Part shown: in pieces, positions 9,330 through 54,351 of the stretch
How positions within the stretch are numbered: position 1 is the first letter of the stretch
How the letters are laid out: every line of letters begins with the position of its first letter
Assembly (NCBI GenBank): GCA_030278955.1
Contig: JAOANR010000014.1
Coordinates: forward strand, 21,144,068 to 21,208,067
Reading direction: 5' to 3'
DNA length: 64,000 nt
From: Hygrophila difformis
Lineage: Eukaryota > Streptophyta > Magnoliopsida > Lamiales > Acanthaceae
Translations under genes and position numbers: made by a program
The notes under the pieces: model-generated
Seen by the model: the letters and a program-made list of their open reading frames with translations, nothing else
Told to the model about the DNA's origin: nothing
The model's database searches: none

Positions 9330-9853
9330 CGGAAATATTTTTTTTTTTAAAATTATTATTATTATTTTGGCCAATATAGAGGCCCAAGATTTTTAAACAA
9401 ATATTAATATTATTTTAAAATTTTTAAGTACCATTATTATTATTTAAATTTTAAGTTTTATTTCCATGGAACAAAATTTATTTTAAACCCATGGGAAATA
9501 TTTACATATGCATAGAAATTTTTCCAACAAGTTTTTAAAGTCACGAAAATATTTTTCAGGGTTGGGGTAGCATTGTATAAAGCATACATGCATTCACATA
9601 CATACATACATGAATATCGCGCTAATTTTTTTTATGTGAATTAATAGTGTCAAAACTCTTACCTTCAAATTGGTCATGACCTTGACTTAGAAGCGTTTGC
9701 TTTAAACTAATTCTGCCTCAGTCTTATAATTTGATCACCTAAGTTTAGCATTCTCCTATCTATTACCTCTTTCCAATCCTACCTTATAGATTTTCTTGAA
9801 CGCTAACTTGCCTTAGATTAGAAACTCATCTTCACGTGCGTTGATAACAGAGA
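9330..9853 (+). other. untranslated leader of TR-GAG element
   Basis: AT-rich, with short ATT runs near 9350 and CATACA repeats near 9590-9610. No ORF precedes the gag ATG. Confidence 0.6.
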
Positions 9854-10909: not shown

Positions 10910-11122
10910 CCGTAAGAAGTTTTCAAGCATCGACAAACTGCATTTATTTTTGAGTGCGACTCTAAGAATTGTATCCAATCAAAAATAAACGAATTCAAAT
11001 TGTTTTGAACTACGTAATGACTTGATCCCTTCACAGGGTACGTAGGCAACTTGGAAATTTCAATTCTGGGTTCAGTCAAATAATAACAGACAACAACACA
11101 CACTAATACAATCACGCAACCA
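10910..11122 (+). other. non-coding 3' part of TR-GAG internal region
   Basis: No long ORF on the sense strand. It sits where pol would be in an autonomous relative and is only about 200 bases. Confidence 0.5.
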
Positions 11123-11182
11123 AACAATGTCCGAGCTCGCGAGGAGCTAACGCCCAACTTCGAGGACGAAGTTGACTCCTAA
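11123..11182 (+). pseudogene. remnant of the C-terminal end of a Tekay-type pol
   Basis: About 19 codons ending in a stop are open immediately before a polypurine tract and end NFEDEVDS. An end of this kind, directly joined to a PPT and TGTAACACCC, is what a Tekay/Del pol gene end looks like. It suggests the internal region arose from an autonomous element by deleting almost all of pol but keeping its last codons. Confidence 0.55.
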
Positions 11183-11329
11183 GGGGGAGAGGATGTAACA
11201 CCCGAGAAATTTAATTCACGTTCAAAGGAATGGGATAAATTTCTTGTGGAAAGTAGATGGAGATACCCCAACATTAAATTGAGCCCAAAAGAAAGCGAAG
11301 GCGCAACTTCGGGGACGAAGTTGATTCTT
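11183..11329 (+). repeat. relic PPT plus LTR-start of a second Tekay family inside the TR-GAG
   Basis: AAGGGGGAGAGGA is followed at 11194 by TGTAACACCCGAGAAATTTA, which has the form of a Tekay/Del LTR start but is unlike this element's own LTR start (TGTAATACCCGGGG). About 100 bases later the unit AACTTC(A/G)(A/G)GGACGAAGTTGA-TAAGGGGG repeats and leads into the real 3' LTR. The element therefore carries two successive 3' ends from different families. Confidence 0.65.
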
Positions 11330-11342
11330 AAGGGGGGTAGAC
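11330..11342 (+). promoter_or_regulatory. polypurine tract of TR-GAG element
   Basis: AAGGGGGGTAGAC lies directly against the 3' LTR start at 11343, the expected place for plus-strand DNA priming. Confidence 0.9.
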
Positions 11343-14300
11343 TGTAATACCCGGGGTTTTTACAACGCCCAAAGAAATGAAATAAAATTTATTTCCGAGA
11401 AGAAAATAATTTATTACAACAAATTATTGCTCGGAAATGGCGTGACCGATAAATTCAAAGAATTCGAACCCAAATTTTGGTCAAGTCGAAATGGGATGAA
11501 AGAGGGAAAGGAAGCCCGAAGATATTCCATGGATTAATCCCAAAAGAATTGGAATTAAATTCAAGAAGGAAAAGAATTTTAATTCCAAGAACCCGTGAAG
11601 TCGGAAATAAATTAATTAGATAAATTATTGCACGGGAATCACAGGACGACAAATTCAAGCCGACGGATTCGAACTCGACGAATTCTTGATTTCAAATATG
11701 AAATTCATTGGAGTCAAAATAAAATTTAGAAAGAAATCGTAACCCCAGAAATGACCCGAAAAGTCGAACCAAAAACGTAGGGGATAGAAACCCGATCGAG
11801 AAAAGAAGAAAAGACCCGACGGACCACGCGGACCGCCGAACCGGCCGGTCCGGCCGGCCCGCGCTCTCCGCGCGCCGCCGCGCGGCCACCGCGCGGATGG
11901 AGGAGTCGCGACTCCAGGGCAGACCACGCGTGCTCCGCGCGGACAAAGGCCTATGTGCGCGTCACCAGCGCGCCAGAGGTGCAGGAGGTGTAAACTTTCC
12001 TTCCATGGCGATTTTCTTGCCAAAAATCCAATCCCTATCGAGGGCAACCGGATCACAGCCTTTGGGAAAGGCTTAAGGGCGGATTGGGGCGCCCTCATTC
12101 TCATTTGGACAGAAAACAAAAGCTTCACTCTCTCAAATTCTCCTCTCCAAGCCGAAATCCCTCCGAGACCACTTTCCGGCGAGTATTCCGGCGACGACGA
12201 GGCAAACGGGACAAGGCCTCTGCTTCCTAGACCTTTGGTAAGTCATAGCTTAATGTTTTAGTTCGTCCATAACACTTAGAAACTCATATTCTAACCCTTT
12301 TTCCTTACTACGATTTCCCGTCGGAAAACGAACAAAAAGCGATCGGAGAAGTTGGCCGTTCGTCGTGACCCTAGGACGTCCGGAAACCCAATCCAGCGAC
12401 CCTATCATCATTCTAAGTAAGTTAAAACCTTACTCACAAATTTTCGTGGTTGTTTGTTGTTTAAATCTCGAGATATAGGCTTGTAACAAAAATCGGTTTT
12501 CAAAAACCCTATTTTCGTCCAATTTTAGAGACTCGCCAAAAACTCGACCTTCGGGAATTCAAACCGAAAACTTTTCAACATAAAAGTTGTTCCTAACACC
12601 TTTATCTATCTTGTGTCCAAATTTCAGCCATTGACATTAAGTTTTGCTATCCCAATTTTCGCCATGAACTTTCTGTACCAAACCGAACGATTTAAATCTG
12701 TGACAGATTCCTTCATTCAACTTGATGCATGTTTTTCACCCATTTTTCGAATGATTTAACTTTGCATTTCTAAACAAAAGTTGTAGATAATTGTGTCTAG
12801 ATTATGCCTACAAAATTTCACGAATTTTGGTGTTCATTTGATATGTCAAACGGCCAAGTTTTTAGAACTGTTTTGAATTCGTTTTAAAGGCCATGAGTAT
12901 GCAGTGAGTTGCACTCGATTTTTGAGTACCAAGAATTCATTATTTCCAAAAACTTAAAACATGAAAGTTGTTCCTTAATGTGTCGTGTAGTTACTGTAAA
13001 AATTTCACATCGATTGGTTTTGAAATGAATTTTTAATCGGCGTTACACGAACCTGTGACGAAAACAGTTTTTAAGACGTAAATAATTCTTTGCAATAAAC
13101 TCAAATTTCAACTCACTTCGGAACCTTATTTCCAAAAACTTAAAACATGAAAGTTGTTCGTGTGTGTGTTTTTGAATTACTGGCCAAGTTTCAGAATTTT
13201 TGGAGGAAAAACGAATTTTAAATTAAGAAAGGCGTGAACTGCCTCGAATAGGATTTTTCGAACTTGAGAAAACTCGAACTATGAAAACGCGATATCGATT
13301 AGTTGATAACTTTGAAATACGAACTTTCGAAAAATCCCGTTCACTAGGCTGAGCCGATCTTCATACAAATTATTTGGACTGCCTCGTTAGTGGTCCTACT
13401 ATCTTTTGAGACTGCCTCGTTAGTGGTCTCCCTTCATTTGGACTGCCTCGTTAGTGGTCCTACTATCTTTTGAGACTGCCTCGTTAGTGGTCTCCTTACT
13501 ATGGCAGTTGTGCACATGGCCTGCCAAATCGGCAGTGAGAAATACACGGCCTGCCCGAGTGGTAGTGAAACCGTTTGAAAGGCCTGTCAAACGACAGTTG
13601 ATATACATGCCTGTCAAATTGACAGTAGATACACACGGCTTGCCGAAATGGCAATCGAGATACATGGCTAGCCAAAACGGCAGTCAATACTGATATGGCT
13701 GCGGCCGCCGGTTCACCGGCTAACTGATTATGATTTTTGAGATTGCCTCGTTAGTGATCTCTCTTGTGTGGTGTCCTCTTCTTAGTTGCGGGATAAAATA
13801 TAAAAGACTTGTGTGAGTGTTGATTACGCTTAAATCTTTTGTATCATGTTTTTAAATTACGCATTTAAATTACGTCATTTAAGTTATGCTTTTAAATTCC
13901 GCTTTTAAATTCCGCTTTTAAATTATGCATAGTCGTCTTGAATAAATTAAACATGTTTTCCGCTGCGAATAAAATATGGATTTTTAAAGTAATGCATGAC
14001 GAGTGAATCTTTGGATTTAAACACATGTAACCCCTTAAATTGTTTTGTTAGGGCTTAACTTACTCAGTATTTTATATACTGATAAAACCCGTTGTTCATT
14101 TTTCCATTACAGAGTACGGAGCATGATCATGCATCGGGGGATCACTTTGGATATTTGGCTAGTTATTTACATGACTTGCATGCGGGTTTGTTGACCCGAG
14201 TTTTTGCCATGTCGGCCCATATTTAAATTTCCGCTGCAACATATTATTCTTATTCATGTATGGATGATGATACACTATTATTTTTAAGTAATTCCGGACT

Positions 14301-14426
14301 TGCTTTTAAAACTTTTTCCAACACCTATAGCCTTGCATCTCTTTAGTAAGCTCGGAGAAACCGTGTCTTGCTAGGGAGGTGCGGCGGTGACACCTCGGCC
14401 TGGGTTATCAAATCCGGGGTGTTACA
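11343..14426 (+). repeat. 3' LTR of the TR-GAG element (3084 bp)
   Basis: Same length as the 5' LTR and nearly identical (two differences seen, offset 5113). It contains the same hairpin array (13376-13761) and the same conserved hairpin with acceptor (14056-14112). It ends at GTGTTACA and is followed by the CATAG duplication. Confidence 0.95.
13376..13761 (+). repeat. tandem hairpin array (3' LTR copy)
   Basis: The same eleven hairpins as at 8263-8648, with no visible differences. Confidence 0.85.
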
Positions 14427-14946: not shown

Positions 14947-16937
14947 TGATGAGTGATTTTCACTACTCATATTTTACCACAAGCGGATGGTTGTCATCAA
15001 GTAATAAAAACCGGTGAATACCGGGTCGAATCCACAGGGAATTTCAGAATATTATTTCATTCCGGAGAAATTTTAATTGTTCTTAAGTTCATTAATTATA
15101 TTTAATATATTTAAAAAGATTTTGATTAATTCTAATGGTGATTTAAATTAAAACAGTGACATTAAGTTAAAATAAAGCAAATTAAAATTTTAATTAATAA
15201 AAATACTAATGGGAGTTGCTTGTAATATTTTAAATATTGCCATCTTTATTATAAAATAGAAATTGTGCAATAATTTGACATTTCCCAATGTTCTAAAAAT
15301 CAATTTCTTAAATTTAAATATTTTTATAAAGATTAAAAATATAATAATCTACTAAAAATTCCAAATTATGCTTAAACGGACTTCATGGAAGCTGATTAGA
15401 TTATCTAACATTTTGGAATCATTATTCTAGGCCTAAATTTGAGTCTTTCCCAAGCATACAAATTTTCCTATAGCAATTAATAGGCACTTTTCATTTTCCA
15501 AATCATTGTGCACATGCCAGAATCCATTTTTAATGAAATTTATTCCCAATTCCGGTACTAAAATATTAATTCTACTTTTTATCTCCCGATTTCGCAAAGC
15601 AGAATTTATGGAATTAGATTCTAACATTTAAATTATGCAAAACAGTGTAAATAATCTAACAATTATGGTAAAATAACAATAAAACATGGTAAACTGGATT
15701 TAATTAACAATATTAAAATACAGACAGATTAGATTTAATGCCAGATTACTAAAAATAGATGGCACAGATTGATCGATCAATTTGGTTTCTAGCAGATTAA
15801 CATTTCAGATTACAGAATTGATAAAAACATAAAATCTCGATCAATATTTCAGGCATCTGACATACAATCCCAATACAGAGTCTAATATTATAGCAGATTT
15901 ATCCAGTTTAAGCGATCAAAATTAGCAGATTCTTATTCCTAAACACAGAACATCGATCAAAAACAGATTAATCAAAATTCCAGATTTCAGAATAAAACAT
16001 CGACATATTATATGCTTCCATAAAAGATGAATTCGTACTTCAAAGTGATTCTGAACTCCCGTTCTAGAACACTTCTAACACGAACAATACAGAAATCCGT
16101 CTACAAATTAAGAACATGATAGCAGATTACATTAAGAGGCAATTTCAATTCATTACAATGCAAGAAAAAGAAAGGCAACACCTAGAATAGGAAGAACACG
16201 CCCAGAACAGCGTCCTTGATGCATTCCTCCGGCATGATTTTGTGTTTCTGGCCTTCTTCTCCCATTAGCAGATGTTTACAGAATGTGTATGTTCGAAAAT
16301 ATGAGTCTGTCTGTCGAAAAAAATGAAGAAAACGGTGTTTAAAACCGAGTTCGGGAAGTTAAGAAACTGCTCAACCGCGACTGTGGCGCCTAATGTGGCG
16401 CTCGGAAGAGGTTTTAGGCGCCACCAAGAAGCTGCGGCGCATAACGACGATTTTCCAAATTTCAGTATGTGGCGCATTTTTTGGCGCTCGGAGATCATTT
16501 TAGGCGCCACCCAGCTTATGCGGCGCATTCTGAAGCTTTTTCCATCCGAAATTTTCCCAAGTGTTGATGCGGCGCCTGATGTGGCGCTCAGGGCTCGATT
16601 TGGGCGCCGACATGCCTATGCGGCGCATTCTGGGCACAGTCCAGTGTTGAAAAATCCGAACTTGACATCTTTTGTTCTCCGAACATCTTCTTTCTTCATT
16701 TTAATGCCTGCAACATCATTGCAATGTCTTAGAATTGCTAAAGTCTTATTAAAAAGCATAAAACAAGGTAAATTGAGCTCAAATAAGCTCAATTTAATCA
16801 ATCTTATTAATATTTACACATCACATGAAATGTACACTAAAAAGAAGTAAAATAGGATCTCATACATGCAATTTAGGTTCTTTTTATCATAATTTGAGCT
16901 TATTTAAATGTGGTTTCACAGGGTGCATCACTCATCA
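14947..16937 (-). repeat. 5' LTR of Athila element (1991 bp)
   Basis: The minus-strand start TGATGAGTGATGC is at 16937 and the end ...CACTCATCA at 14947. The two termini form an 11-base inverted repeat (TGATGAGTGAT), longer than the usual TG...CA. The inner end also has a short hairpin (ATGAGTGA/TCACTACTCAT, 14949-14970). The body is AT-rich apart from a GC-rich repeat block at 16383-16629. No ORF is supported. Confidence 0.85.
16383..16629 (-). repeat. three imperfect GGCGCC-rich repeats in Athila LTR
   Basis: About 62-bp units at 16383-16442, 16468-16529 and 16566-16629 each contain GTGGCGC, GGCGCTC, GGCGCC and GCGGCGCAT in the same order. GGCGCC is self-complementary. The block stands out as GC-rich in a very AT-rich LTR and lies near the LTR's 5' (U3) end, where enhancer repeats are usually found. 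Confidence 0.7.
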
Positions 16938-18718
16938 CATGTATTTTTATTCAAAAATAATACATAGATACATTTGTTTAAGAATTATGTTTGTTATGAA
17001 CGCTATATACCATATATTGCTCATTAAACTATATAGGGTATAATCAAATGCAGTTGGCCTGAGTGATATGGGTCTTTGTTAGTTTAAGCAAATGTCTCGG
17101 ATTGGAGCCTTTGAATATACAGAATTCAAATACCCACCAGATTCTTAAGTTATTAGTCTAGAGTTCAACGTGATCAGAGATACATAGTATACGCCAAAAA
17201 TTATATACGGTAAATTTGACGAAAAATATATCTACGATTTTTGGTGTCCATGCACATAGATAGATCCAAATGTTAGATTGTCATTGTATATAGATAATTA
17301 TGAGAAAATGATTAAATAGTAGTATTATATATTTTCCTTAGATCAGAGCCTATTTGCTTGAATTTTTTTTTCTCTCTTTTGCTCTTCGAAAGCCTTTTTG
17401 AATTAATTTTTCTAACTATTCATTTGACTTTTTGTCAAAAGAAAAGACAATTGCAAAAGAAAAATTATCTTTGTAAGTGAGTAGGTAGGGCTTGCTTTTC
17501 CCAAAAATGAAAAGTTGTTTTGGGTAGGAAAATATAAAATAAAATTATACAATCATGTTTTCATTAAAAAGCAATGTTTTTTTTATTATTTTTTGGTGAA
17601 ACCGGGTATCCCCAGACCACATTGGACCCAAAACGAATCCCTCGAAGATTTGCAAGGACTATTAAGGGTGCCAATATTTTTAATTCAAACAATTATATAG
17701 ATTGTTTTTTTTATTATTATTTCTCATTCTTTTTCCGACTGACTTCTTATTTTCTTAGAAGCCTAAACAAACCGGCCTAATTTCAAATTTATACATTTTT
17801 TTATCGCAAATTCTAGGAAGTTCTATGTTGCTGTCAATTCTGTTTGGGTTCGTGCTCATCCTCTTTATTCACTTATTAATCGAATTTGGCCATAAAAGAA
17901 AAGATTTGGCCTTATATGTTTACATTAATTCCAAATTGGTACTTATAAACATATACTATACTAGCTAAAAAGCTGTGCACAGCACAGCTTATTGAGGACG
18001 TACAACCGCCCGTGGGGGAAAAGAAATAATTGTAGGTAAGCGTATGTGGGTTTTTTATATTTATAAAATGGTGAATAAATGACTGAGGAATCGGAAGTGG
18101 GTTTTATTGAGATAAAATAAATGCTATTTAATTTTTTTAAATAAATACCAGGGCAACCATAAGCTTCAAAATTGGGTGAGCATTGAAGAGTTGCTGGTAT
18201 GAAAGTCAAAATATCGACTTTTCAGATGAGAAACAAAATAAACCAAACCTCAACGTGTTTGCCAAAGTCAAAATATCGATTTTTAGAACCAATGCTATCA
18301 ACAAGCTTTTTTGGCTATAATGCCACAGGCACACCCTACAAGAAAACAAGAAAAACGTAAATCCACGCTCAAAATGAGAGTAGGGATACACAATTAATCT
18401 AGCAGCAGAGATGCCTTAGAATTACCTTTTCCCTAACATATCTTCGTAAAGCAATAGAAACACCAATTTGAGAAATAGCACAAAACAATTCCTCAAATGG
18501 TCAATTACAGGTAAATAATTATTTCAACTCTTATGCTACTAAAGGTAAACGCCAAAAGGAAGAAGATGGCAAGTAACCTTCTTCAAATTATTGTTCTCCT
18601 CAGACAGATGGGCTACTTACAGAGCTCTAAAACATAAACCAATATTCTAATGGAGAGCCATTTTATCGCCGGGCTCGACTGGTTAAATTGTTACAAATAC
18701 ATATACAGCATGAATAGT

Positions 18719-18720
<2 letters not shown>

Positions 18721-18771
<51 letters not shown>
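18721..18771. repeat. (AAT)n microsatellite, about 17 copies
   Basis: A perfect trinucleotide run; the allele in the second duplicate has about 6 copies. Confidence 0.95.
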
Positions 18772-18774
<3 letters not shown>

Positions 18775-18959
18775 GACGTCAGCATCAATGGGAATCAGCT
18801 TTCCCATGTTCCCATAAATAGACGAGTATTAATGGATTCACAACTTTGAACCATGCCCGAAATCCCTCCATTACAAAACGTTTTAAGAATTCTGCATATC
18901 TTGGCTTTGCTATCAGTATTAATGGCATAAAAAGCTAACTAAAATTAACATCCCAAAGT

Positions 18960-20650
18960 AGAATCAACAAATTTTTACAATGACATTGGACGAAGGCTAG
19001 GCGAAGGAGAAGGAATCCTATTGAATGGCGATAATCTGAAACTGCCGTTCATTCGGTGGACTTCCACCACCACCTTGGTCGTCATGATTCTCTCAATGCC
19101 CAAGCACACATGATGGAATACTCGTCCCTGGATACTGGTTTTGATCATGTGGAAGAAGCTGGACCTAGTAAAAAAAGAGAAGAGTAAAAGAATATGGTCA
19201 GTGTTATCATCTCCTTACAAATTCAGTTTTAGTTTTTCTTTTATTAGGGTAGTTAATTGACAGACGAGTTGGTATGACTTAAAACATGGGTGCTTTACAA
19301 AACAACAGACATAAGGGAAAAAAGTAAACCAAAGCTCATGCCACATCAGCCTGCGGCCCTGGTAGGTTCTTTGGCGAAGTGCGGGAAAGCATTCAAAACC
19401 CATCACGCCTAAGGTGTATGAGGAGTTGTATGTTGAGCAGAGGCTGAAAGGCTCTGCAAAGCACGGGGGAATTCATCCTATGTGTAATTTATAAGAATTC
19501 ATATTAACAAACAATATATATACTATACATTTGTACAATGAATTAATGTTGAATTCACTAAGAGCTGACCTGTCAGCAGACGGCTGGTGTGAGTGTACAT
19601 CAAAGGTAAAGATAGTTTTCCACTCCACTGACCATTCCAAACTGAAAAGCTAATGCAACACACAAACAAACCAATCAACTTGCAAAGGAATTACATATAG
19701 GGTAAACACTAACATTATCGTCCACTGACGTATAGGTAAGATTTAGATGTTGCTACTCTAACAAGAGGAGGGGGAAAAAGGAAAAGTTATATTGGGTATC
19801 AATATTCAAAGGAAATCATTAGAATAATAAGTTGGGAAACCGGCCACTGTTTTTACAAAAAAGGGGAAGGAAAAAGTCAGGGAAATCAAACAACAGGCAA
19901 ATACACTTAAAATGAAAGCTTTTCCATAATAATAGTAAAGAATCACAAAAAGGCGTCAAAGGTGAGGCGTGTTTATATCAAATAACCACAAAGGGCAAAA
20001 AAACAAAGAGAATTGAACAATGCAAGGCGCTCACACACGGCACCATATTAACAAGCCTACCATATTGAGCAAGAACGGGTAATTTGTTCTTTCATGGCAC
20101 TTGGTTTCCCATCAAATGCAAAAAGATGATGAATAGCTCGAAAGGTATTACTCGCACTGTGGAGGACATTTTGCGATGCCCTGGTTTCTCCAATCACAGT
20201 CGCTGATTATTGCAACTTCTCCACTTTGGAACTGCACGCGAGAAAGTGTTTGCGAAAAATTAATAGGGAAAAAAGAAATCATTGTTAGAATGTATTCTCA
20301 AGTTTGGCATGCATTCTAAAAACCGAGGGGCAGCAAATTAGAAAAAAACAACGATGAACTGTAAGTACAAGGGCGAATGCAATTCTCACAGATGGAGGCA
20401 ATAAACCATGAGACAACACAAGGACTTCTAACGTGGGGAGGCAATAGGTATCATTAATATACAATAAGCAAACCTGGACATCCTGAGGTGGAGTGTAGCA
20501 GGACATATTCAACAAAGCTGCATTCCTCATATGACTGGACTACAGCGAGGAAGCACACTGGTAAGCTGAATTGAAATGGATACCAGATCGAGCTGCTCCA
20601 ATGAGCGGGGAATTATGCAGGCTATACCTAACATAATGAACAAAGGCACC
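18960..20650 (-). pseudogene. exon-like fragments of an unidentified minus-strand gene (copy 1)
   Basis: Several separate blocks read as short coding stretches on the minus strand, with splice-like borders: about 20560-20650, 20060-20240, 19565-19665, 19330-19480 and 18965-19165. The last could end in a stop near 18980. They are kept in both duplicates. Frames do not join into a continuous protein by eye and I recognise no domain, so this may be a decayed gene or a misreading of conserved repeat sequence. The remaining parts of the duplicated segment (16938-18950 and 20660-21346) show nothing coding. Confidence 0.25.
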
Positions 20651-21911
20651 AGCTATAGGGTAAACATACTGACGTATAGCTAACAATTTAGATGTTGCAA
20701 CTTTAACAGGAAGGGGGGAAAAAGGAATTCACCAGGCATCATCAGAATAATAATATGAAAACCTGCCACTGCTTTTACAAAAAGGGGGGAAAAAATGAGT
20801 TGGGAAATTGAAACAATAGACAAGTACAGTAAAAATGAAAATTTTTCCATAATAATAGTAAAGAAGCCATACAATTTCCATCCAATTTGGGATGACCACA
20901 ATATGGACAATTTTGTCACTCCATAATCATTTACTATATATGCTCCTTTTTACTTTCTTCTATTAATATGTGTGGACAATTTTGACTACCTAGGGATACT
21001 GGCCCAAAACCACCCCCTACTCTTTTGGGCCACAATATGCCAGAATTCCTTCTATTACTGAATTGAAATTCTCCCTGGGCTAATATTAATATGTGTGGCA
21101 AGATACTATTTGGTAATAAAAACAGTTAAAAACAATAAAGGCTCTGTTTGGTAAATTCATAAAGTTTAGAGTTTAGCGATTAGAGATTAGAGATTAGAGT
21201 CCGGAGTTTAAAGTTTAGAGATTAGAGATTAGGGTTTGAATTTTAGTTTTGCAAACTGAGTGTTTGGTAACATTTTTAGAGTTTGGAGTTTAAAAGGCAA
21301 AATTACATAAATAGGCTTTACTAGCCATTAATTAATATGCAATTGTTGTAACACCCCCATTTTCCCTAAGGATGCAGCGGAAGAAAAGAGCGGGAACAAT
21401 GGGTGGGGTGCTACCGCCACGTATTCCGGACTGCCAGAAATACGCTAAGGCTAGCAGAAATAATTGCATAAAATCAGAATTTGAATGTATATGCTAACCA
21501 CGTTCCGGACAAGCTAGCATATAATTCACAAAGAAGCTTATATAATGTGAAAGGTATAAAATAAGCTTAATAAAAATATTTGGTATAGCGTAACCAAACG
21601 GAGAACTGCATTCCTCAAAGCGCGCAATAACAATAATGGAGTAAATCCATGGAATTTTTATTTCGCAAAAAGGGGTTGTCTGTTTCATACTCAAAAATAC
21701 TGTTAAACGCATAATGCATTGTTTAAGACAGTAGGGCACCCTATTTTCATAGATGGGATAAAACCCAAATATTTTGTTTATGCTCGATAAAAATCACTAT
21801 CTATGCCAAGTAATAACTTTTTATCCCAATAAGGGGGTTTTAAAATATACATTTTCATAAATAATACCCCAAATCGTGCCCGTGCAGATGATGCCTTGCA
21901 GATCTCAAAAC

Positions 21912-38164: not shown

Positions 38165-40305
38165 AATATGTACTAATTAGTTGTGATGCTGTGAAATATT
38201 GTTGCTTTTTCGTTTCCTTATGGACTTCCTCATGCTTCAGGTGTTTCACCAAATAGCATTGAAGAGCTAGAAACCTTTGTTCGAAACTTTTTTCAATGTC
38301 TGCCGTCAACTGCAGTCATCTGCATTAGCTTGGTTACAGAGTTTGATGCTTGCCTAGTGACACAACTCTTGCAGTCTTCTCCCACAATTCAATCATGGAT
38401 TCTATTATCCCAGTTGGGTTCAGATGATCAGCATATTGTGCCGCTGCCAATATGGACAATCTTTAGGTATTATATCATAAAACAATGCACACTTGAGAAT
38501 TATGTGCCAATAAGTAGACGTATCCTTGGGCTTCATATGCAATTGATAACATCTCTCCATTGTTTAGGCATGTGGTGGAGGGACGTCACTATTCAAACAA
38601 GGAAAAGAATTGGAGGAAAAAGAGAAAATGTGATAAGTGTCTTGGCAAACTCTTGAAGTAAGTTCTGATTTCCGAAAAAATTAACTTTCAGATTCCCTTA
38701 AAATGTTGTTATCATATATTCAACTTTTCCATATGTTATCCTTGATAATTAATAATTGGGCGTCACAACCTTTTATTTGAGTCGTTAATTTTCATTATAG
38801 TCCATGTTTATCTAAACAATCATCAAACCTCCATGCAAAAAATAACTTTATGGATCAAGGATGTGGAAAACTATGGGTTGAGTTCTTGAAGACATCTGCT
38901 TTTGGGGGATTGGTTAGATTGTGACTATATTGACTCTATTTACAATAACCTACTCGAGGACAACGATAGAGATTTTTTTGTAGCTAGTTGCAAGAAAAAA
39001 ATGTTGCATTGGAATGCGGGCTCCACGATCTAAAGCATTAGTAGATTTTGAAAACAAAATTGAATCGTCATTTAAAGGAATGGTCAGTGTATTACTTGAT
39101 GGAGATTGAATTGAAAGGAAGAAGAAAAGACCAATCATATTGGTTTTGGATTTTGAGGTGCAGGTATGTCTTTTACACTTGAAATGTCATTGGGATCATT
39201 ACCTTAGTATATTAAATTAACACTAATTTAAACATAGATGTAGCACAAAATGTGTGTGGTTTGGTTTCGTTTTATTTCTATTTTACATTTGTCGACGAAT
39301 CTGACATTTTTCCTGAAGATGTTACTGTGGGAAAGCATTCCTGTTTTGAGAGACAGAGGTTTATAGGATGCCATTAGTTTTATACCATCTTTCAACACTT
39401 GAAAAGATGCTTTCAAAACCCGAAACAACTTGAAATTACTTCCCACATTTTCCAATAATAGATCACCTAGATTCATATTACTTGTTGAATCCAGGTGGTA
39501 ATACTAATATGATCTATTATCAGACAAGACTTAAAAAATTGTTTAAAGATTGAAACACAGATGTACTTTCATATTTATAGTTGCATGCTACAATATTGTG
39601 TGCTTTACATTTCACAGTAAGTGAGTTCTAACAAACTTCTCATACAGTGAAGGGTTGAAACAACTCCCACAATTGCCGAACTTGTTCGGGCATTGAAAGA
39701 TCATAACTTTTATGAATATTTATGACCATGGAGATGGTTAGCCAGATAAAAATGAACATTCGCTTCAGATTAGTTCTCACCTTGTCAAGTTTAATCATAT
39801 ATTGATTTAAGTTTAATAGACATGCAATATTTTTCCCGGTAAATTGAGGAATTCGATAAATGTGCTGCCGCTCTACTTAGTGGATGTTGCAGCGGTGCTC
39901 TTTATTCACGAGGATGCTACAGGCCTGTAGAGCTTCCATCTCATACTTGTTGGGAGGGTCCTCATTCATAATCTCGAATTTGTGGGAAGTAAGTGGTGAT
40001 GATAGAGAAAAATTTGGAAGGATACTGCCAAAGGCATTGATAAGCGAAAGATCAATTGAGTGCCCTGAATTTAATGTATTATTGACAGGAGACAAGTCTA
40101 GGTCCACAACATGTAATCATAGACGGAGGATTGGATCGTTTATTGAGGAGACTCGTGATGCTTGTCATTTCCCTTTTGCAAATGGTGCAGCAATGGTTTG
40201 CTATGGTGATCCAATCGGAATAGCCAATGTATAGGGCGCAACTGAGGAAAAGGGAAAAGAAATAAGAATATGTTTTGAGCTTTTTTGAATTGGGGGATTC
40301 TGATC
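38165..40305 (+). repeat. left arm of a large inverted repeat (separase catalytic region)
   Basis: It matches the reverse complement of 40356-42545 over its whole length, exons and introns alike, at roughly 85-90% by eye with small indels. The innermost bases are GGGGATTCTGATC, against GATCAGAATCCCC in the other arm. Confidence 0.88.
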
Positions 40306-40355
40306 TAGCTATGATATCATTTCAATCAAATGATTTTGATTGTTATTCACATCAG
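40306..40355. repeat. centre of the inverted repeat, itself palindromic
   Basis: The 50-base spacer contains the perfect palindrome ATGATATCAT (40311-40320) and an 8-bp hairpin CAATCAAA-TGAT-TTTGATTG (40324-40343). Confidence 0.8.
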
Positions 40356-42545
40356 GATCAGAATCCCCAATTCAAAAAACTCAGAACATGTTCCCATTCC
40401 TTTTCTTTTTCCTCAGTTGCGCCCTATTCGTCTTGCCTTTTGGCTATTCCGGTTGGATCACCATAGCATACCACTGCTGCACCATTTGCAAAAGGGAAAC
40501 AACAAGGATCACGAGCCTCCCAATAAACGATCCAATCATCCGTCTATGATTACATGTTGTGGACCTAGACTTGTCTCCTATCGATAATACATTAAATTTA
40601 TGGCACTCAATTGATCTTTTGCTTATCAATGCCTTCAGCGTATCCTCCCAAATTTTTCTCCGTCATCACCATTTACTTCCCACAGATTCGAGATTATGAA
40701 TGAGTATCCTTCCAACAAGTATGAGATGGGAGCTTCTATAGGCCTGTAGCATCCTCGTGAATAAAGAACACCGCTGTAACATCCAATAAGTAGAGCGGCA
40801 ACACATTTATCAAATTCCTCAATTTACAGGGGATACATTGCATACATGTTAAAATTAAATCAATATGATTAAACTTGACAATGTGAGCAGTAATATGAAG
40901 GGACTGTTCATTTTTCTCTGCCTTACAATCTGCATGGTCATAATATACATAGAAGTTATGATTTTTCAATGCCTGAACAAGTTCGACAACTGTGGGAGGA
41001 GCTATTCCAACCTTTCCCTGTATGAGAAGTTTGTTAGAATTCACATAATGTGAAATGCGAAGCACACAACATTGTAGCTAACTTGCAAGTATAAATGTGA
41101 AGGTACCTCTATGTTTCAATTTTTAAACAACTTTTTAACTCTTGTCTCATAATAGATCATATTAGTATTACCACCTGGATTCAACAAATAATATGAATAT
41201 ATGGGATCTATTATTGGGAAATCTAGGACAGTAGTTTCAAGTTGTTTCGGATTTTGACAGCATCTTTTTTAGTGTTGAAAGATAGTACATACTGATGACA
41301 TCCTATAAACCTCTTTGTCTCTCAAAATAGGCATGCTTTCCCACGGTAACATCTGAAGGAAAAATGTTAGATTCGTTGACAAATGTAAAAGAGAAATAAA
41401 ACCAACCCACAAACATTTTGTACTACATCTATGTTTAAATGAGTCTTAATTTACATATACTAAGGTAATGATCACAATGACATTTCAAGTGAAAAAGACA
41501 CACCTGCACCTCAAAATCCAAAATTAATATGATTGGTCTTTTGTTCTTCCTTTCAATTTAATCTCCATCAAGTGATACATTGACCATTCCTTTAAATGAC
41601 GATTCAATTTTGTTTTCAAAATCTATTGATGCTTTAGATTGTTGAGCCCGCATTCCAATGCAACAAATTTTTTTTTCTTGCAACTAGCTGCAAAAAATCT
41701 CTAATGCCGTCCTCGAGAAGGCTTTTGTGAACAGGGTCCATATAGTCACAATATAACCATCCCCCGAAAGCAGATGTCTCCAAGGACCCAAACAGTAATT
41801 TTCCATATCCCTGATTCAGAAAGTTATTTTTGGCATGAAGATTTTATGATTCTTTAGATAAACACAGGCTGTCCACAGATAATAGGCTAGTAGAATGAAT
41901 ACTGTTATGAAAGTTAACGACTCAAATAAAAGGTTGTGATGCCCAATTATTAATTATCAAGGATAACATATGGAAAAGTTGAATATAGGATAACAATATT
42001 TTCTAGGGAAGCTTAGAGTTTATTTTTTTGGAAATCAGAACTTACTTCAAGAGTTTGTCAAGACACTCATCACATTTTCTCTTTTTCCTCCAATTCTTTT
42101 CCTTGTTTGGATAGTGACGTCCCTCCATCACATGCCTAAACAATGGAGCGATGTTATCAATCGTAGAGGAAACCCAAGGCCGCGTCCACTTATCGGCACA
42201 GAATTCTCAAGTGTGCATTGTTTTATGATATAATACCTTTAAAGGTTTTCCATATTGGCAGCAACACAATTTGCTTATCATCTGAACCCAATTGGGATAA
42301 TAGAATCCATGCTTAAATTGTGCGAGAAGAGCGCAAGAGTTGTGTTAGTAGGCAAGCATCAGATCCTATAACCTAGTAAAATGTAGATGGCAGGTTTGGT
42401 GGTGGACATTGAAAAAAGTTTCGAACAAAGGTTTCTAGCTCTTCAATGCTATCTGGTGAAGACTCGAAGCATGAGTAAGTCCTAAGGAAACAAAAAAGCG
42501 AGAATAGTATTTCACGGCATCACAATTAATATACATTGATAGTTT
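40356..42545 (-). pseudogene. ESP: right arm: inverted copy of the separase C50 region
   Basis: The minus strand repeats the separase catalytic part. It keeps some stretches that arm 1 has lost: the exon at 41285-41352 reads in frame MLPWES...LRDKEVYRM, whereas arm 1 has a 2-base deletion and a Pro-to-Leu change there. The His motif reads DHADC rather than HGSG/HGDG. The end region (40444-40629, KRSIECHKFN...) matches 40020-40200. Stops and frameshifts remain, so this too is a pseudogene. Both arms decayed separately after the duplication. Confidence 0.82.
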
Positions 42546-45071: not shown

Positions 45072-45082
45072 TACACTCATCA

Positions 45083-48000
45083 CATGTATTTTTATTCAAA
45101 AATAATACATAGATACATTTGTTTAAGAATTATGTTTGTTATGAACGCTATATACCATATATTGCTCATTAAACTATATAGGGTATAATCAAATGCAGTT
45201 GGCCTGAGTGATATGGGTCTTTGTTAGTTTAAGCAAATGTCTCGGATTGGAGCCTTTGAATATACAGAATTCAAATACCCACCAGATTCTTAAGTTATTA
45301 GTTTAGAGTTCAACGTGATCAGAGATACATAGTATACGCCAAAAATTATATACGGTAAATTTGACGAAAAATATATCTACGATTTTTGGTGTCCATGCAC
45401 ATAGATAGATCCAAATGTTAGATTGTCGTTGTATATAGATAATTATGAGAAAATGATTAAATAGTAGTATTATATATTTTCCTTAGATCAGAGCCTATTT
45501 GCTTGAATTTTTTTTTTCTCTCTTTTGCTCTTCGAAAGCCTTTTTGAATTAATTTTTCTGACTATTCATTTGACTTTTTGTCAAAAGAAAAGACAATTGC
45601 AAAAGAAAAATTATCTTTGTAAGTGAGTAGGTAGGGCTTGCTTTTCCCAAAAATGAAAAGTTGTTTTGGGTAGAAAAATATAAAATAAAATAATACAATC
45701 ATGTTTTCATTAAAAAGCAATGTTTTTTTATTATTTTTTGGTGAAACCGGGTGTCCCCAGACCACATTGGACCCAAAACTAATCCCTCGAAGATTTGCAA
45801 GGACAATTAAGGGTGCCAATATTTTTTATTATTAATTCAAACAATGATATAGATTGTTTTTTTTTATTATTATTTCTCATTCTTTTTCCAGCTGACTTCT
45901 TATTTTCTTAGAAGCCTAAACAAACCGGCCTAATTTCAAATTTATACATTTTTTTATCGCAAATTCTAGGAAGTTCTATGTTGCTGTCAATGCTGTTTGG
46001 GTCCGTGCTCATCCTCTTTATTCACTTATTAATCGAATTTGGCCATAAAAGAAAAAATTTGGCCTTATATGTTTACATTAATTCCAAATTCGTACTTATA
46101 AACATATATATACTAGCTAAAAAGCTGTGCACAGCACAGCTTATTGAGGACGTACAACCGCCCGTGGGGGAAAAGAAATAATTGTAGGTAAGCGTATGTG
46201 GGTTTTTTATATTTATAAAATGGTGAATAAATGACTGAGGAATCGGAAGTGGGTTTTATTGAGATAAAATAAATGCTATTTAATTTTTTTAAATAAATAC
46301 CAGGGCAACCATAAGCTTCAAAATTGGGTGAGCATTGAAGAGTTGCTGGTATGAAAGTCAAAATATCGACTTTTCAGATGAGAAACAAAATAAACCAAAC
46401 CTCAACGTGTTTGCCAAAGTCAAAATATCGATTTTTAGAACCAATGCTATCAACAAGATTTTTTGGCTATGATGCCACAGGCACACCCTACAAGAAAACA
46501 AGAAAAACGTAAATCCACGCTCAAAATGAGAGTAGGGATACACAATTAATCTAGCAGCAGAGATGCCTTAGAATTACCTTTTCCCTAACATATCTTCGTA
46601 AAGTAATAGAAACACCAATTGGAGAAATAGCACAAAACAATTCCTCAAATGGTCAATTACAGGGAAATAATTATTTCAACTCTTATGCTACTAAAGCTAA
46701 ACGCCAAAAGGAAGAAGATGGCAAGTAACCTTCTTCAAATTATTGTTCTCCTCAGACAGATGGGCTACTTACAGAGCTCTAAAACATAAACCAATATTCT
46801 AATGGAGAGCCATTTTATCGCCGGGCTCGACTGGTTAAATTGTTACAAATACATATACAGCATGAATAGTGTAATAATAATAATAATAATAAAAAAAAAA
46901 AGACGTCAGCATCAATGGGAATCAGCTTTCCCATGTTCCCATAAACAGACTGAGTATTAATAGATTCACAACTTTGAACCATGCCCGGAATCCCTCCATT
47001 ACCACACATATTAAGAAGGCATAAAAAGCTAGCTAAAATTAACATCCCAAAGTAGAATCAACAAATTTTTACAATGACATTGGACGAAGGCTAGGCAAAG
47101 GAGAAGGAATCCTATTGAATGGCGATAATCTGAAACTGCCGTTCGTTCGGTGGACTTCCACCACCACCTTGGTCGTCATGATTCTCTCAATGCCCAACCA
47201 CACATGATGGAATACTCGTCCCCGGATACTGGTTTTGATCATGTGGAAGAAGCTGGACCTAGTAAAAAAAGAGAAGAGTAAAAGAATATGGTCAGTGTTA
47301 TCATCTCCTTACAAATTCAGTTTTAGTTTTTTTTTAGACAGACGAGTTGGTATGACTTACAACATGGGTGTTTTACAAAACAGCAGACAGAAGGGAAAAA
47401 AGTAAACCAAAGCTCATGCCACATCAGCCTGCGGCCCTGGTAGGTTCTTTGGCGAAGTGCGGGAAAGCATTCAAAACCCATCACGCCTAAGGTGTATGGG
47501 GAGTTGTATGTTGAGCAGAGGCTGAAAGGCTCTGCAAAGCACAGGGGAATTCATCCTATGTGTAATTTATAAGAATTCATATTAACAAACAATATATATA
47601 CTATACATTTGTACAATGAATTAATGTTGAATTCACTAAGAGCTGACCTGTCAGCAGACAGCTGGTGTGATTGTACATCATAGGTAAAGATAGTTTTCCA
47701 CTCCACTGACCATTCCAAACTGAAAAGATAATGCAACACACAAACAAACCAATCAACTTGCAAAGGAATTACATATAGGGTAAACACTAACATTATCGTC
47801 CACTGACGTATAGGTAAAATTTAGATGTTGCTACACTAACAAGTGGAGGGGGAAAAAGGAAAAGTTATATTGGGTATCAATATTCAAAGGAAATCATTAG
47901 AATAATAAGTTGGGAAACCGGCCACTGTTTTTACAAAAAAGGGGAAGGTAAAAGTCATGGAAATCAAAACACAGGCAAATACACTTAAAATGAAAGCTTT

Positions 48001-49425
48001 TCCATAATAATAGTAAAGAATCACAAAAAGGCATCAAAGGTGAGGCGTGTTTATATCAAATAACCACAAAGGGCAAAAAAACAAAGAGAATTGAACAATG
48101 CAAGGCGCACACACACGGCACCATATTAACAAGCCTACCATATTGAGCAAGAACGGGTAATTTGTTCTTTCATGGCACTTGGTTTCCCATCAAATGCAAA
48201 AAGATGATGAATAGCTCGAAAGGTATTACTCGCACTGTGGAGGACATTTTGTGATGCCCTGGTTCCTCCAATCACAGTCGCTGATTATTGCAACTTCTCC
48301 ACTTTGGAACTGCACGCGAGAAAGTGTTTGCGAAAAATTAATAGGGAAAAAGAAATCATTGTTAGAATGTATTCTCAAGTTTGGCATGCATTCTAAAAAC
48401 GAGGGGCAGCAAATTAGAAAAAACAACGATGAACTGTAAGTACAAGGGCGAATGCAATTCTCACAGATGGAGGCAATAAACCATGAGACAACACAAGGAC
48501 TTCTAACGTGGGGAGGCAATAGGTATCATTAATATACAATAAGCAAACCTGGACATCCTGAGGTGGAGTGTAGCAGGGCATATTCAACAAAGCTGCATTC
48601 CTCATATGACTGGACTACAGCGAGGAAGCACACTGGTAAGCTGAATTGAAATGGATACCAGATCGAGCTGCTCCAATGAGCGGGGAATTATGCAGGCTAT
48701 ACCTAACACAATGAACAAAGGCACCAGCTATAGGGTAAACATACTGCCGTATAGCTAACAATTTAGATGTTGCAACTTTAACAGGAAGGGGGGAAAAAGG
48801 AATTCACCAGGCATCATCAGAATAATAATATGGAAAACCTGCCACTGCTTTTACAAAAAGGGGGGAAAATATGAGTTGGGAAATTGAAACAATAGACAAG
48901 TACAGTAAAAGTGAAAATTTTTCCATAATAATAGTAAAGAAGCCATACAATTTCCATCCAATTTGGGATGACCACAATATGGACAATTTTGTCACTCCAT
49001 AATCATTTACTATATATATGCTCCTTTTTACTTTCTTCTATTAATATGTGTGGACAATTTTGACTACCTAGGAATACTGGCCCAAAACCACCCCCTACTC
49101 TTTTGGGCCACAATATGGCCAGAATTCCTTCTATTACTGAATTGAAATTCTCCCTGGGCTAATATTAATATGTGTGGCAAGATACTATTTGGTAATAAAA
49201 ACAGTTAAAAACAATAAAGGCACTGTTTGGTAAATTCATAGAGTTTAGAGTTTAGCGATTAGAGATTAGAGATTAGAGTCCGGAGTTTAAAGTTTAGAGA
49301 TTAGAGATTAGGGTTTGAATTTTAGTTTTGCAAACTGAGTGTTTGGTAACATTTTTAGAGTTTAGAGTTTAAAAGGCAAAATTACATAAATAGGCTTTAC
49401 TAGCCATTAATTAATATGCAATTGT
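45083..49425. repeat. duplicated 4.3-kb segment, copy 2
   Basis: Direct repeat of 16938-21346. The identity begins 9 bases earlier, at CACTCATCA (45074-45082), which equals the last 9 bases of the Athila LTR next to copy 1. It ends at GCAATTGT (49425), exactly where copy 1 is cut by the LARD-like element. The exon-like blocks of the unidentified minus-strand gene are present at about 47090-48780. No intact gene. Confidence 0.92.
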
Positions 49426-51022: not shown

Positions 51023-51155
51023 TCGAATTTATTGCTGTTATAGAGAGTTGACCAAAGACCTCAAACTAAAACGGGCAAAGGCTGAACTGAAGGTGACATC
51101 ATGTAACCACAAGCAAAGCAATAGACATCATGTTATAGAGCTATGACAATATTAT

Positions 51156-51160
51156 AGAAT
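51156..51160. repeat. target-site duplication AGAAT of the solo LTR, left
   Basis: Identical to 53905-53909. Confidence 0.9.
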
Positions 51161-51508
51161 TGTAACACCCCGGTTTTTGGTCACCCAGGTCGGGATGTCA
51201 CCGCCACATCTCCCTAACAAGACACGGTTTCTCCGAGCTTGCTAAAGAGATGCAAGGCTATGGTTTTTCAGAATTTAAAACATTCAAACAGCCCATTTAT
51301 ATATAATTTAAAAATTAATACATCAAAGTTGCAGCGGAAAATAATATTTACATAAGAACAATGCAGCGGAATTTAAATATAGCCAACACGGCCAGAATAC
51401 GGGTTAAACAGGCCCGTTCATGCAATTTCTAGTCTAACGTAACATTTAAAAATAAATCGTTTCCCCAAACTTCCCATGAATGCATATGATGATGCATATT
51501 CTTCAACT

Positions 51509-51566
51509 CTGAAATAAACAGGGAAATAAAAATGGTTTGGTCAGCAATACGTGCTGAGTAAGTTAC
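51509..51566 (-). promoter_or_regulatory. conserved LTR hairpin plus 3' splice acceptor (solo LTR)
   Basis: On the minus strand AACTTACTCAGCA opens a perfect 6-bp hairpin TCAGCA/TGCTGA (51557-51552 and 51546-51541, loop CGTAT). A pyrimidine tract and the acceptor TTTCAG follow, ending at 51509, 31 bases after the hairpin. Confidence 0.6.
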
Positions 51567-51826
51567 CACAAACATGATTGTGAGGTTTCAAAGCCTTTAA
51601 TTAAATTTAAAAACATGTGCATAATATCCATGATTTAATTTATCCAACTAATAATAATTTAATTGCGTATTTTAAAAGACAAGGGTTTCCATAAGATCAT
51701 AATTCAACACATGATAAAATAATCGCAAGACATAATTTAAAGGCATAATTTAAATAAGGAAACTATTTAAGTATTTCAGGATTTCACTATCCCTCTTTTA
51801 TTCGATATAATCTAGTATAATTTATT

Positions 51827-52134
51827 CTTGGGGAATCGAACCCGCAAGAAAACAAACAATCGCCCTTGGGGAATCGAACCCGCAAGAACTCACATACATC
51901 CTAGGGAATCGAACCCGTAGGAATCAACACATATTCTGGGGAATCGAACCCGCAGAAAGACACACCCTGGGGAATCGAACCCGCAAGGTTTGACACGGAC
52001 ATCCTGGGGAATCGAACCCGCAGGAGAACATACAATCGCCCTTGGGGAATCGAACCCGCAAGAACTCAAACACACCCTGGGGAATCGAACCCGCAAGGTT
52101 TGACACAGACATCCTGGGGAATCGAACCCGCAGG
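51827..52134 (-). repeat. nine tRNA T-arm-like hairpin repeats, each with a B-box
   Basis: Units start at 51827, 51865, 51900, 51935, 51966, 52003, 52041, 52076 and 52113, each 22-23 bp with 14-17 bp spacers. On the minus strand every unit contains GGTTCGATTCC, a perfect match to the Pol III B-box (GGTTCGANNCC), which in tRNA forms the T arm. The outer stem differs between units but still pairs: CTTG/CAAG, CCTG/CAGG, CCTA/TAGG and TCTG/CAGA. Two units have an extra A (CCTG/CAAGG). There is no A-box or tRNA body, so these are not tRNA genes. Confidence 0.85.
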
Positions 52135-53904
52135 TCAAACAAATTTCGCAAATTTCACGAGTTTCATCAAGAGTTCAAGATTTAACTCGGTCAACCACAG
52201 TTTAATCTAAAATGCGTCTAAAATCAGATTTAATTTCAAAAATTCCGAAATTTTGCGTCTGACTCCAAAACGTCAAGATCTACAACTTTCGTGTTTTAAC
52301 TTTTTCAATCCGGGATACCTAAATAGGTCAAAAACACTAATTTTCACAGAAGTATAAATCTGTCCGAATTTCCTAGGTCACAGTTTAGAGATTTCGAATT
52401 CTACCATAGCAAATCAACTCCAAAATTAACGAAATTTGACAGAGATCATCTTAAGACATATATCTGCAAGTTTCATGTTCAGCAAAAGATCTAATTCATC
52501 CTATTTCTATTGTCAAAAACGCCAACAAGTTCGGGCCAAGAATCTGTCAAAATTTCAAGATCCATATCCTAGCAGTTCGGTTTCGGGTGGATTTCATATA
52601 CCAAATCATCACGAAAAATTCTGAAAATTTACGGAGGTGTTCTTAACGCATAGATCTACAACTCTTATGTTCAACGCTAAGCCTAGATCGGTCTAGATCG
52701 AAGGTAGAAATCACCAACAAGTTCGAACTAAAGTTCTGTCACCGTTTCAAGATCTAAACTCAAGGCAGGTCTGTTTGTGGTCGTTTTCGGATATCAAAAC
52801 ACGATGAAAAATTATGAAAATTTTACAGTACATAGATCTATGTCATAGGAACGTTTTTCGTGGTTTAAGTTTTTTCGTTTGAAGTCGTTTTGATGTTCGG
52901 AAAAATTAGACAAAACTGTTGCACCGTTAAAAATCACATATGGACGGATTTACGAAAGATTTGCTCAAGTTTCTAGATTTGAATATTTTTACTACTCCCA
53001 AAACCGTGTAAGCGTTAACTTACTGATTTACGGATGTCTCGGCTCGATGATTCGGAGGCGTGGCTTCCACGTTCTTCGTTCTCCCTCCGAGATCCTTCGT
53101 TTTTCCTCAACGCGTCCGGATCGGGGTTTAGAATAGGAAAGAGATTTAATTAGGATTCGTTTTCGAATCTTGAATGGAAAAGAATGGACAAGAATGGTTC
53201 GAATCTTACCCCGATGATCGAAGACTCCTAATTTTCGTCCAAGTCAGTCCCTTGATTCGGTTTGTGCTTCCGACGACTCCGGAATTAGGGTTTTGTGTGT
53301 AGAGAGATTTCGTAGGGTTTTGTAAAGATGTTCGGGGCTCCCAAGAGGGTTTATTTATAGATATTTAAGATCTAGGGCGTCCAAGATCTGACCCCAAGCG
53401 TCTTGAGTCGAGATATGTTCAACCGAAAGTCGAAAAATCCGCGTTCGGGCGAGAAAATCGCGAAACGGCCGCAACTGCCAAGTGGCGCGCTCTTGGCGCG
53501 GTGAACCCCTAAAGACCGCGCGGCGACCGCGCCGTCCTGGCCTGGACTTCGGTCTGGGCCGGGTCGTGCGATCCGTCGGGCGTTTCCTCCTCTCTTTCGG
53601 ACTTCTATCCCTCTATGTTCCCGGATTCGGATTTCCGGGGTATCTTCGGGCTCCGATTTCCTATCTTAATTTTATTCGGACCTAAATTTATGTTTGGACT
53701 CGAGTTATTGAGTCCATCGATGTCGGGTCCCCGTGTAACCGTTTATTCAATTAAATTGTCTCCGGCTTCCCGGGTTCTTGGAATTTTGATTCCTTTTTAA
53801 TATAAATTTCATTTCTCATCTTTTATGATTCTTTATCCCTTTATCATGTTTATTATATTTATTTATTGCATTTATTTTATGTTGGAAAATTCTCGGGTAT
53901 TACA

Positions 53905-53909
53905 AGAAT
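53905..53909. repeat. target-site duplication AGAAT of the solo LTR, right
   Basis: Identical to 51156-51160. Confidence 0.9.
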
Positions 53910-54351
53910 AATCAAATCCCTTAAAAACATTTATCATCCAATGAAATCAAATTCAGAAGTCTGAATTCATTGCAGCTATAGAGAGTTATACAAAGACCTC
54001 AAACTAAAACGGGCAAATGCTGAACGCAGGGTGATGTAACCACAAAACCAATAGATCATCAGGTTACAGAGCTATCAAAATACTATAGAATAATTAAATT
54101 CCTCAAAAACATCTCTCATCCAGTGGAATATTAATTCAGAAGTCTGAAACCCACATCAAAGCACATATTTACCAATCTAATAAAGAAAGACTTCTCAATT
54201 TCTCAATATAACGCAGATAAAAGCACATGTGAAGAATCAACAAATTATATCTTCAGGCGATCGTGGTGTCATAGGTGAAAGAGACGAGGAGGTAGTTTCC
54301 TGGATTATCCTCGTCGGGTTCAATTCTTAGTGTCTACTTATTCACAGTAAC

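Follow-up and report, generated by a model that had tools for sequence, protein, structure and literature searches.

The sequence of Pol III origin in Cassandra is 5S-derived; it is not T-arm-like and is not known to form a hairpin array. These TRIMs share with the LTR analysed in this study the presence of Pol III gene sequence (that of 5S RNA) in a plant LTR (available portion of PMC10886601; see also PMC7215508). Helenus (TRIMp3) resembles it in having a tRNA-derived sequence with a conserved box B (GGTTC) inside the LTR, as well as target site duplications (TSDs) of 5 bp in plants (PMC10886601, in the portion available). According to the same portion of PMC10886601, Helenus differs in that its LTR has a single tRNA-like stretch, which includes both box A and box B, and its plant LTR, found only in Selaginella, has a length of 120 bp. 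The solo LTR described below contains nine B-boxes and no A-box in 2744 bp, and its relative lacks an exact B-box. Neither is a miniature element of the Helenus/TRIMp3 kind, the LTR alone measuring 2744 bp and the relative, which carries gag, 8197 bp. This relative (element 2) is similar to elements of the TR-GAG type, a name that we take to denote gag-only non-autonomous LTR elements: it has two LTRs, a primer binding site (PBS) and one gag ORF in the 2029 bp that separate the LTRs. It differs in the hairpin arrays of its LTRs, TR-GAG being compared by name only.

The barley element BARE is a Copia element. It reportedly produces separate RNAs for packaging and, in spliced form, for Gag; the splice takes out 104 nt near the end of gag, and a tandem hairpin array is not mentioned in the excerpted text (PMC3735527). 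The separate RNA pools of BARE suggest that full-length RNA needs marking (PMC3735527, same excerpt). A cluster of five B-boxes, comparable to the array of nine, has been described in the IR boundary of S. pombe, which differs in not being an LTR and in the action of TFIIIC at the DNA level; covarying hairpins are not mentioned in the available part of that paper (PMC4502379). In the open-access literature, no LTR hairpin arrays of the kind reported here were found among the titles and abstract beginnings of the matches listed.

The nine-unit array was identified in the window (the whole stretch of 64,000 nt that was analysed) by TRF, motif counts and unit alignment. The sequence-only reading had placed it inside an LTR, and this was borne out; more precisely, it resides in a solo LTR flanked by AGAAT duplications:

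51161-53904, minus strand, solo LTR holding the array, 2744 bp, TG...CA ends, sense TGTAATACCC...GGGGTGTTACA
51156-51160, target site duplication AGAAT, left flank of the solo LTR
53905-53909, target site duplication AGAAT, right flank of the solo LTR
51827-52134, minus strand, array of nine T-arm-like hairpins
52113-52134, minus strand, unit 1, stem CCTG/CAGG
52076-52097, minus strand, unit 2, stem CTTG/CAGG, wobble on sense
52041-52062, minus strand, unit 3, stem CTTG/CAAG
52003-52024, minus strand, unit 4, stem CCTG/CAGG
51966-51987, minus strand, unit 5, stem CTTG/CAGG, wobble on sense
51935-51956, minus strand, unit 6, stem TCTG/CAGA
51900-51921, minus strand, unit 7, stem CCTA/TAGG
51865-51886, minus strand, unit 8, stem CTTG/CAAG
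51827-51848, minus strand, unit 9, stem CTTG/CAAG

The TG...CA ends, the 5-bp TSD and the homology to an LTR accompanied by a PBS and a Ty3-type gag identify this sequence as the LTR of a Ty3-type retrotransposon. No second copy of it was found within the window, and the plasmid collection contained no match. Comparison with the LTR of element 2 (LTR2) revealed 87% identity across the last 108 bp and 58-77% identity in the other matching stretches of at least 40 nt. Since the solo LTR is homologous to the end of LTR2, which the PBS follows, its sense strand is the minus strand. A direct duplication of approximately 137 bp (51025-51160 and 53963-54091, 82% identical) brackets the solo LTR.

All nine units contain an exact copy of GGTTCGATTCC on the minus strand, between positions 51832 and 52128, as expected from the earlier claim of a perfect B-box in every unit; window shuffles gave 0.64 matches to GGTTCGATTCC, even with one mismatch allowed. 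Each copy constitutes the apex of a 22-nt hairpin, which is composed of four basal pairs, an invariant bulged C, three G-C pairs and a 7-nt loop (TTCGATT). The loop is T-arm-like; the stem, with 3 bp, a bulged C and 4 bp, is not a regular 5-bp T-stem. The four compensating stem versions named in the sequence-only reading (CTTG/CAAG, CCTG/CAGG, CCTA/TAGG and TCTG/CAGA) were all detected, together with a fifth, CTTG/CAGG, in two of the nine units (51966-51987 and 52076-52097), where the sense strand of the LTR has a T-G wobble and the opposite strand a C-A mismatch. The units are separated by G- and T-rich spacers of 9 to 16 nt, giving a pitch of 31-38 nt, and the order of stems and spacers revealed three-unit higher-order repeats (TRF period 110).

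Analysis of the 63 pair cells of the nine units identified 61 Watson-Crick pairs, two G-U pairs on the sense strand and no broken pair; in the five distinct units all 35 cells are paired. Three of the seven pairs, namely three of the four basal ones, are changed on both sides. This degree of covariation was equalled by 4 of 500 shuffles, and when the partners were slid by 1 to 3 columns in either direction (six versions), no pair was changed on both sides. All 14 core columns are invariant, which holds for 3 of the 20 columns of the spacers (Fisher 1e-6, a number that is rough because the spacer alignment contains many gaps); pairwise identity of the spacers falls to 66%. These results agree with the proposal of a loop conserved at the sequence level and a stem conserved at the level of structure. 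We regard the evidence from the solo array as good for a kept core and as moderate for covariation; the units are few and mutually related (the solo array has 5 distinct ones, 2a has 3 and 2b has 6; 2a and 2b are the arrays of LTR2 described below).

Element 2 and the two types of array within its LTRs (2a and 2b) comprise the following features:

6230-14426, plus strand, element 2, gag-only, 8197 bp, CATAG duplications on both sides
6230-9313, plus strand, 5' LTR (LTR2)
9317-9329, plus strand, PBS TGGTATCAGAGCC
9848-10906, plus strand, gag ORF with Retrotrans_gag and Ty3_capsid
11343-14426, plus strand, 3' LTR, differing from the 5' LTR at 2 of 3084 sites
8263-8283, 8296-8316, 8327-8347 and 8360-8380, plus strand, hairpins 1-4 of array 2a in LTR2, with the 3' LTR copy 5113 bp further on
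8627-8647, plus strand, fifth hairpin of the 2a type, stem AGAT/ATCT, 267 nt from the fourth
8408-8422, 8438-8452, 8471-8484, 8498-8512, 8527-8541 and 8556-8570, plus strand, six hairpins of array 2b in LTR2

With only two differences between its LTRs, a TSD, a PBS (presumably of the initiator-Met type) and gag, element 2 is complete and young. Protein searches with its gag product identified 15 relatives, 14 of which are named Ipomoea triloba, the basis for regarding the window as plant DNA, and one Morganella morganii. The latter is encoded by a contig of 1330 bases and is probably plant DNA in a bacterial assembly. No confirmed relative of this gag was found in IMG/VR.

The apex of 2a (TGC-CTCGTTA-GTG) is invariant in the five hairpins, which have the stems GGAC/GTCC, AGAC/GTCT and AGAT/ATCT. 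The loops of 2b are not conserved, as illustrated by CTGCC-AAATC-GGCAG, CTGTC-AAATT-GACAG and TTGCC-GAAAT-GGCAA. The pitch is 31-33 nt in 2a (the fifth hairpin apart) and 27-33 nt in 2b. Two covarying pairs were detected in 2a, a result matched by 58 of 500 shuffles and not significant alone; one outer cell, outside the 7-bp stem, is T-T. Array 2b has two covarying pairs in three cells (matched by 14 of 500 shuffles) and one A-A mismatch, and sliding its partners by -3 also yielded one pair changed on both sides. This array was found mainly by eye and by repeat search, a scan with a fixed 5-nt geometry giving one pair per strand. The three shuffle fractions combine to 0.0017, which is to be taken as a guide and not as a probability. 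In all three arrays the standard pairs that are not Watson-Crick are G-U on the sense strand, those of 2a counting only through where the stem was drawn. A loop motif, NUCGNUN, is common to the solo array and 2a in four of the seven loop letters as compared by eye; this likeness is weak, and chance yields such motifs often enough.

To place the arrays among the hairpins of the window, both strands were scanned over the whole length for hairpins within 500 nt of each other with like loops and compensated stems. The scan revealed 70 + 41 = 111 covarying hairpin pairs on the two strands, a count that includes the same hairpins at several loop lengths. The solo array and those in both LTRs of element 2 account for 92 of these, including every pair with an identical loop of at least 9 nt. 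The remaining 19 have shorter or imperfect loops, many of them in AT-rich or telomere-like sequence, with one identical 7-nt loop (57437/57593). Also among the 19 are the G+C-rich palindromes GCGGGCCGGCCCGC and ACGGGCCGGCCCGT, at 33168 and 33283 (115 nt apart), with one compensated pair.

Folding gave mixed support for the hairpin arrays. Compared with shuffles, the solo array reached a z of -3.54 on the sense and -3.09 on the antisense strand. Its minimum-energy sense fold is predicted to contain three of the nine, since pairing also takes place between units. The predicted mean local pairing probabilities of the nine hairpins were 0.18-0.77 on the sense and 0.01-0.61 on the antisense strand, and those of the five 2a hairpins were 0.56-0.85 on the sense strand. 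For the array region of LTR2 the z was -1.49 (7 of 100 shuffles were as good), and all five 2a hairpins were present in the predicted centroid fold.

The arrays of both LTRs are accompanied by signal-like sequences, which are listed here with their putative roles:

53352-53359, minus strand, TATA-like TATAAATA, putative, approximately 1.2 kb upstream of the array in sense
53205-53209, minus strand, GTAAG, putative donor-like site, solo LTR position 696
7125-7130, plus strand, GTAAGT, donor-like site of LTR2, LTR2 position 896, at a place comparable to the solo GTAAG
53018-53023, minus strand, GTAAGT within AGTAAGTTAA, putative donor-like site, solo LTR position 882
7304-7309, plus strand, GTAAGT of LTR2, LTR2 position 1075, in the same 10 letters AGTAAGTTAA and aligned with the solo LTR
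51821-51826, minus strand, first AATAAA of the solo twin, position 2079, adjoining the last unit, putative signal
51797-51802, minus strand, second AATAAA of the solo twin, position 2103, putative signal
8828-8833 and 8855-8860, plus strand, twin AATAAA of LTR2, positions 2599 and 2626, putative signals
51509-51510, minus strand, AG of TTTATTTCAG, putative acceptor-like site, pyrimidine-rich, ending near 2396
8998-8999, plus strand, AG of TTTTTCCATTACAG, putative acceptor-like site of LTR2, pyrimidine-rich, ending near 2770

The order of these signals is common to the two LTRs (donor-like sites, arrays, twin AATAAA, acceptor-like site), and it is this order that hints at an R region or at an intron in the leader. 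Each signal alone is possibly due to chance, since GTAAGT occurs 36 times and AGTAAGTTAA five times on both strands of the window, and AATAAA occurs eight times in the solo LTR and six times in LTR2. A palindrome, GCATGATCATGC, is located directly after the acceptor-like site of LTR2 (9008-9019), and the solo LTR has ATGCATCATCATATGCAT at a like place; these could be palindromes of the dimer type.

The tRNA likeness of the solo array is confined to its apex. ARAGORN detected no tRNA in the window, and no Rfam match reached the gathering score. The solo LTR gave one sub-threshold match to tRNA-Sec (51997-52077; 19.6 bits as against 47, E 1.4), in which it is the T-arm that aligns well. Four A-box patterns were compared with sense positions 1500-2150 of the solo LTR, and the best site had two mismatches. 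From these three results it follows that the array has B-boxes and T-arm-like loops but lacks the other parts of a tRNA. The ARAGORN and Rfam results led us to reject a surrounding tRNA or SINE body; a Pol III gene with a type 2 promoter was rejected for want of an A-box upstream at a tRNA-like distance. The 14-nt core is presumably equal to part of the T-arm of plant tRNA-Gly, and the T-loop/B-box apex may derive from a tRNA. With one mismatch to GGTTCGANNCC, seven further sites were detected in the window (shuffles, 6.3): these include two in each LTR of element 2, in antisense and far from the arrays (6347, 6552 and their copies), and one at 53196 on the antisense strand of the solo LTR.

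The trait common to the two LTRs seems to be RNA hairpins and not tRNA-like letters. What was observed are (i) the hairpins themselves, (ii) invariant apices in two arrays, (iii) covarying stems, and (iv) different arrays at the same place of a related LTR. Our preferred reading, tentative and with a probability of about 0.45, is that the array is a fast-evolving hairpin module of plant Ty3-type LTRs, kept by selection on the sense RNA. Such a module would consist of tandem RNA hairpins, mostly at a pitch of 27-38 nt, in what is expected to be the transcribed portion of the LTR. For the solo array and 2a, the apex (7-nt loop and three inner pairs) would be fixed and the basal stem free to change while paired; in 2b the loop would vary too, and only the stem pattern would be kept. 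The T-loop/B-box would be the apex that the subfamily of the solo LTR happens to use.

The array region would be transcribed and would lie in the unspliced leader, between the donor-like and acceptor-like sites. For so many similar hairpins the simplest role would be multivalent binding of one protein, to which they would offer a landing platform, perhaps for packaging; the likeliest candidates are Gag and a host factor able to distinguish full-length genomic RNA from spliced mRNA. An array removed from the mRNA by splicing would mark the full-length RNA. In retroviruses, packaging hairpins located beyond the splice donor have this role. A more far-reaching version, which we consider unlikely, is that of a replaceable module of the LTR leader, in which the apex is swapped between families and the form, pitch and place of the array are kept. 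The multivalent platform would then mark full-length genomic RNA, and this may be how non-autonomous copies choose the Gag of a partner.

A serious rival to selection on the sense RNA is a neutral minisatellite, possible although distinctly less probable, in which a short quasi-palindrome was amplified in tandem, and arm-templated correction and conversion between units keep the stems complementary without any selected function. In quasipalindrome correction, replication errors occur with one arm serving as template for the other. Both LTRs contain many tandem repeats, some of them of higher order (the TRF period of 110 mentioned above, and a 64-bp unit repeated at 100% in LTR2), and the independent changes are few. 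When six changes were simulated neutrally on a tree resembling that of the solo units, all pairs stayed standard in 9% (outer 8 columns) and 15% (all 22 columns) of the runs with transitions only, which is compatible with neutrality, and in 0.09% and 1.4%, respectively, when any substitution was allowed. However, when transitions were placed in all columns, pairs and core were jointly kept in only 0.04% of the runs. An invariant core between spacers that have diverged to 66% is unlike the outcome of whole-unit conversion, and the wobble of two units pairs in the sense RNA only. A neutral origin is also disfavoured by the finding that two related LTRs carry dissimilar arrays at corresponding places, and that 92 of the window's 111 covarying pairs are concentrated in them.

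The sequence-only reading had offered a TFIIIC insulator or decoy. In an explanation of this kind, TFIIIC would occupy the nine exact B-boxes in the absence of Pol III, and the array would serve as an insulator, a boundary or a decoy. As the reason for the array this now appears improbable. LTR2 contains hairpin arrays in the same region but no GGTTCRANNC on either strand, its two one-mismatch antisense sites lying away from the arrays; the B-boxes are thus not the common function, and a B-box function common to both LTRs was rejected. TFIIIC needs the B-box in DNA and not the pairing of the basal stem, whereas the covariation is found in that stem, outside the 11-nt B-box, and there is no A-box with fewer than two mismatches near the array. 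The option of a structured RNA, raised in the same reading, gains support from the kept loop and the paired stems. In S. pombe, deletion of its five B-boxes lowers the boundary strength of IR-L, but loss of the B-boxes alone does not severely impair the boundary at the endogenous IR-R (available part of PMC4502379); tRNA-derived sequences with boxes A and B do exist in LTRs of Helenus TRIMs (excerpt of PMC10886601). T-arm mimicry at the RNA level, with pseudouridylation of the loop or a tRNA-like signalling role of the hairpins in phloem transport of RNA, has about the same low standing. The loop GUUCGAUUC fits the TRUB1/Pus4 motif GUUCNANNC in all nine units (excerpt of PMC5713356), and mRNAs fused to tRNA-Gly or tRNA-Met become mobile in plants, although only 11 of 174 highly expressed motif-bearing mRNAs moved in a study quoted in the accessible text of PMC8047152. 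Because neither 2a nor 2b has T-loops, such mimicry is not the function common to the LTRs, and the bulge of the solo stem is absent from a T-arm. The least probable of these readings is control of polyadenylation, in which hairpins and U/G-rich spacers would bring upstream elements near the twin AATAAA and set the frequency of RNA ends. An AATAAA adjoins the last solo unit, twin AATAAA follow the arrays in both LTRs and the solo spacers are G- and T-rich, but the twin of LTR2 lies 180 nt beyond its last hairpin and AATAAA is frequent in both LTRs.

On the reading of a hairpin module kept in the sense RNA, a recently active element with an array of similar hairpins, their stems covarying, would provide a defined and deletable candidate signal. 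The T-arm version brings together, within a single LTR, nine B-boxes and nine sites predicted to be pseudouridylated, which could be checked against plant RNA-modification and ChIP data.

The searches were extended to sequence collections of prokaryotes, viruses and plasmids. A two-site pattern matched 25 stretches of IMG/VR, with one match each. ARAGORN, applied to 12 of these, identified tRNA or tmRNA genes in nine, and the matches were rejected as copies of the array and taken to be ends of phage tRNAs. The 17-nt unit was found in five stretches of IMG/VR and the 16-nt string of a 2a hairpin in four; a 23-nt string of the conserved LTR end had no matches there. A three-site pattern matched two prokaryote contigs, both from MAGs, which carry a sequence resembling a tRNA 3' end three times head to tail (L031, 1405-1503; L032, 3835-3912). 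Protein searches with two ORFs across the array revealed no relative at E <= 0.001 among 111 and 340 candidates, respectively.

Apart from the LTRs, the window contains a large inverted duplication (38168-42536), in which 38168-38801 matches 41901-42536 with 88% identity and 38805-41864 matches its own reverse complement with 87%. Three ORFs within it had no Pfam match at E 0.01; to us they look separase-like. Telomere-like AGTTTAG repeats occur at 21163-21246 and 49239-49325, near the ends of long repeats (16929-21346 and 45074-49425).
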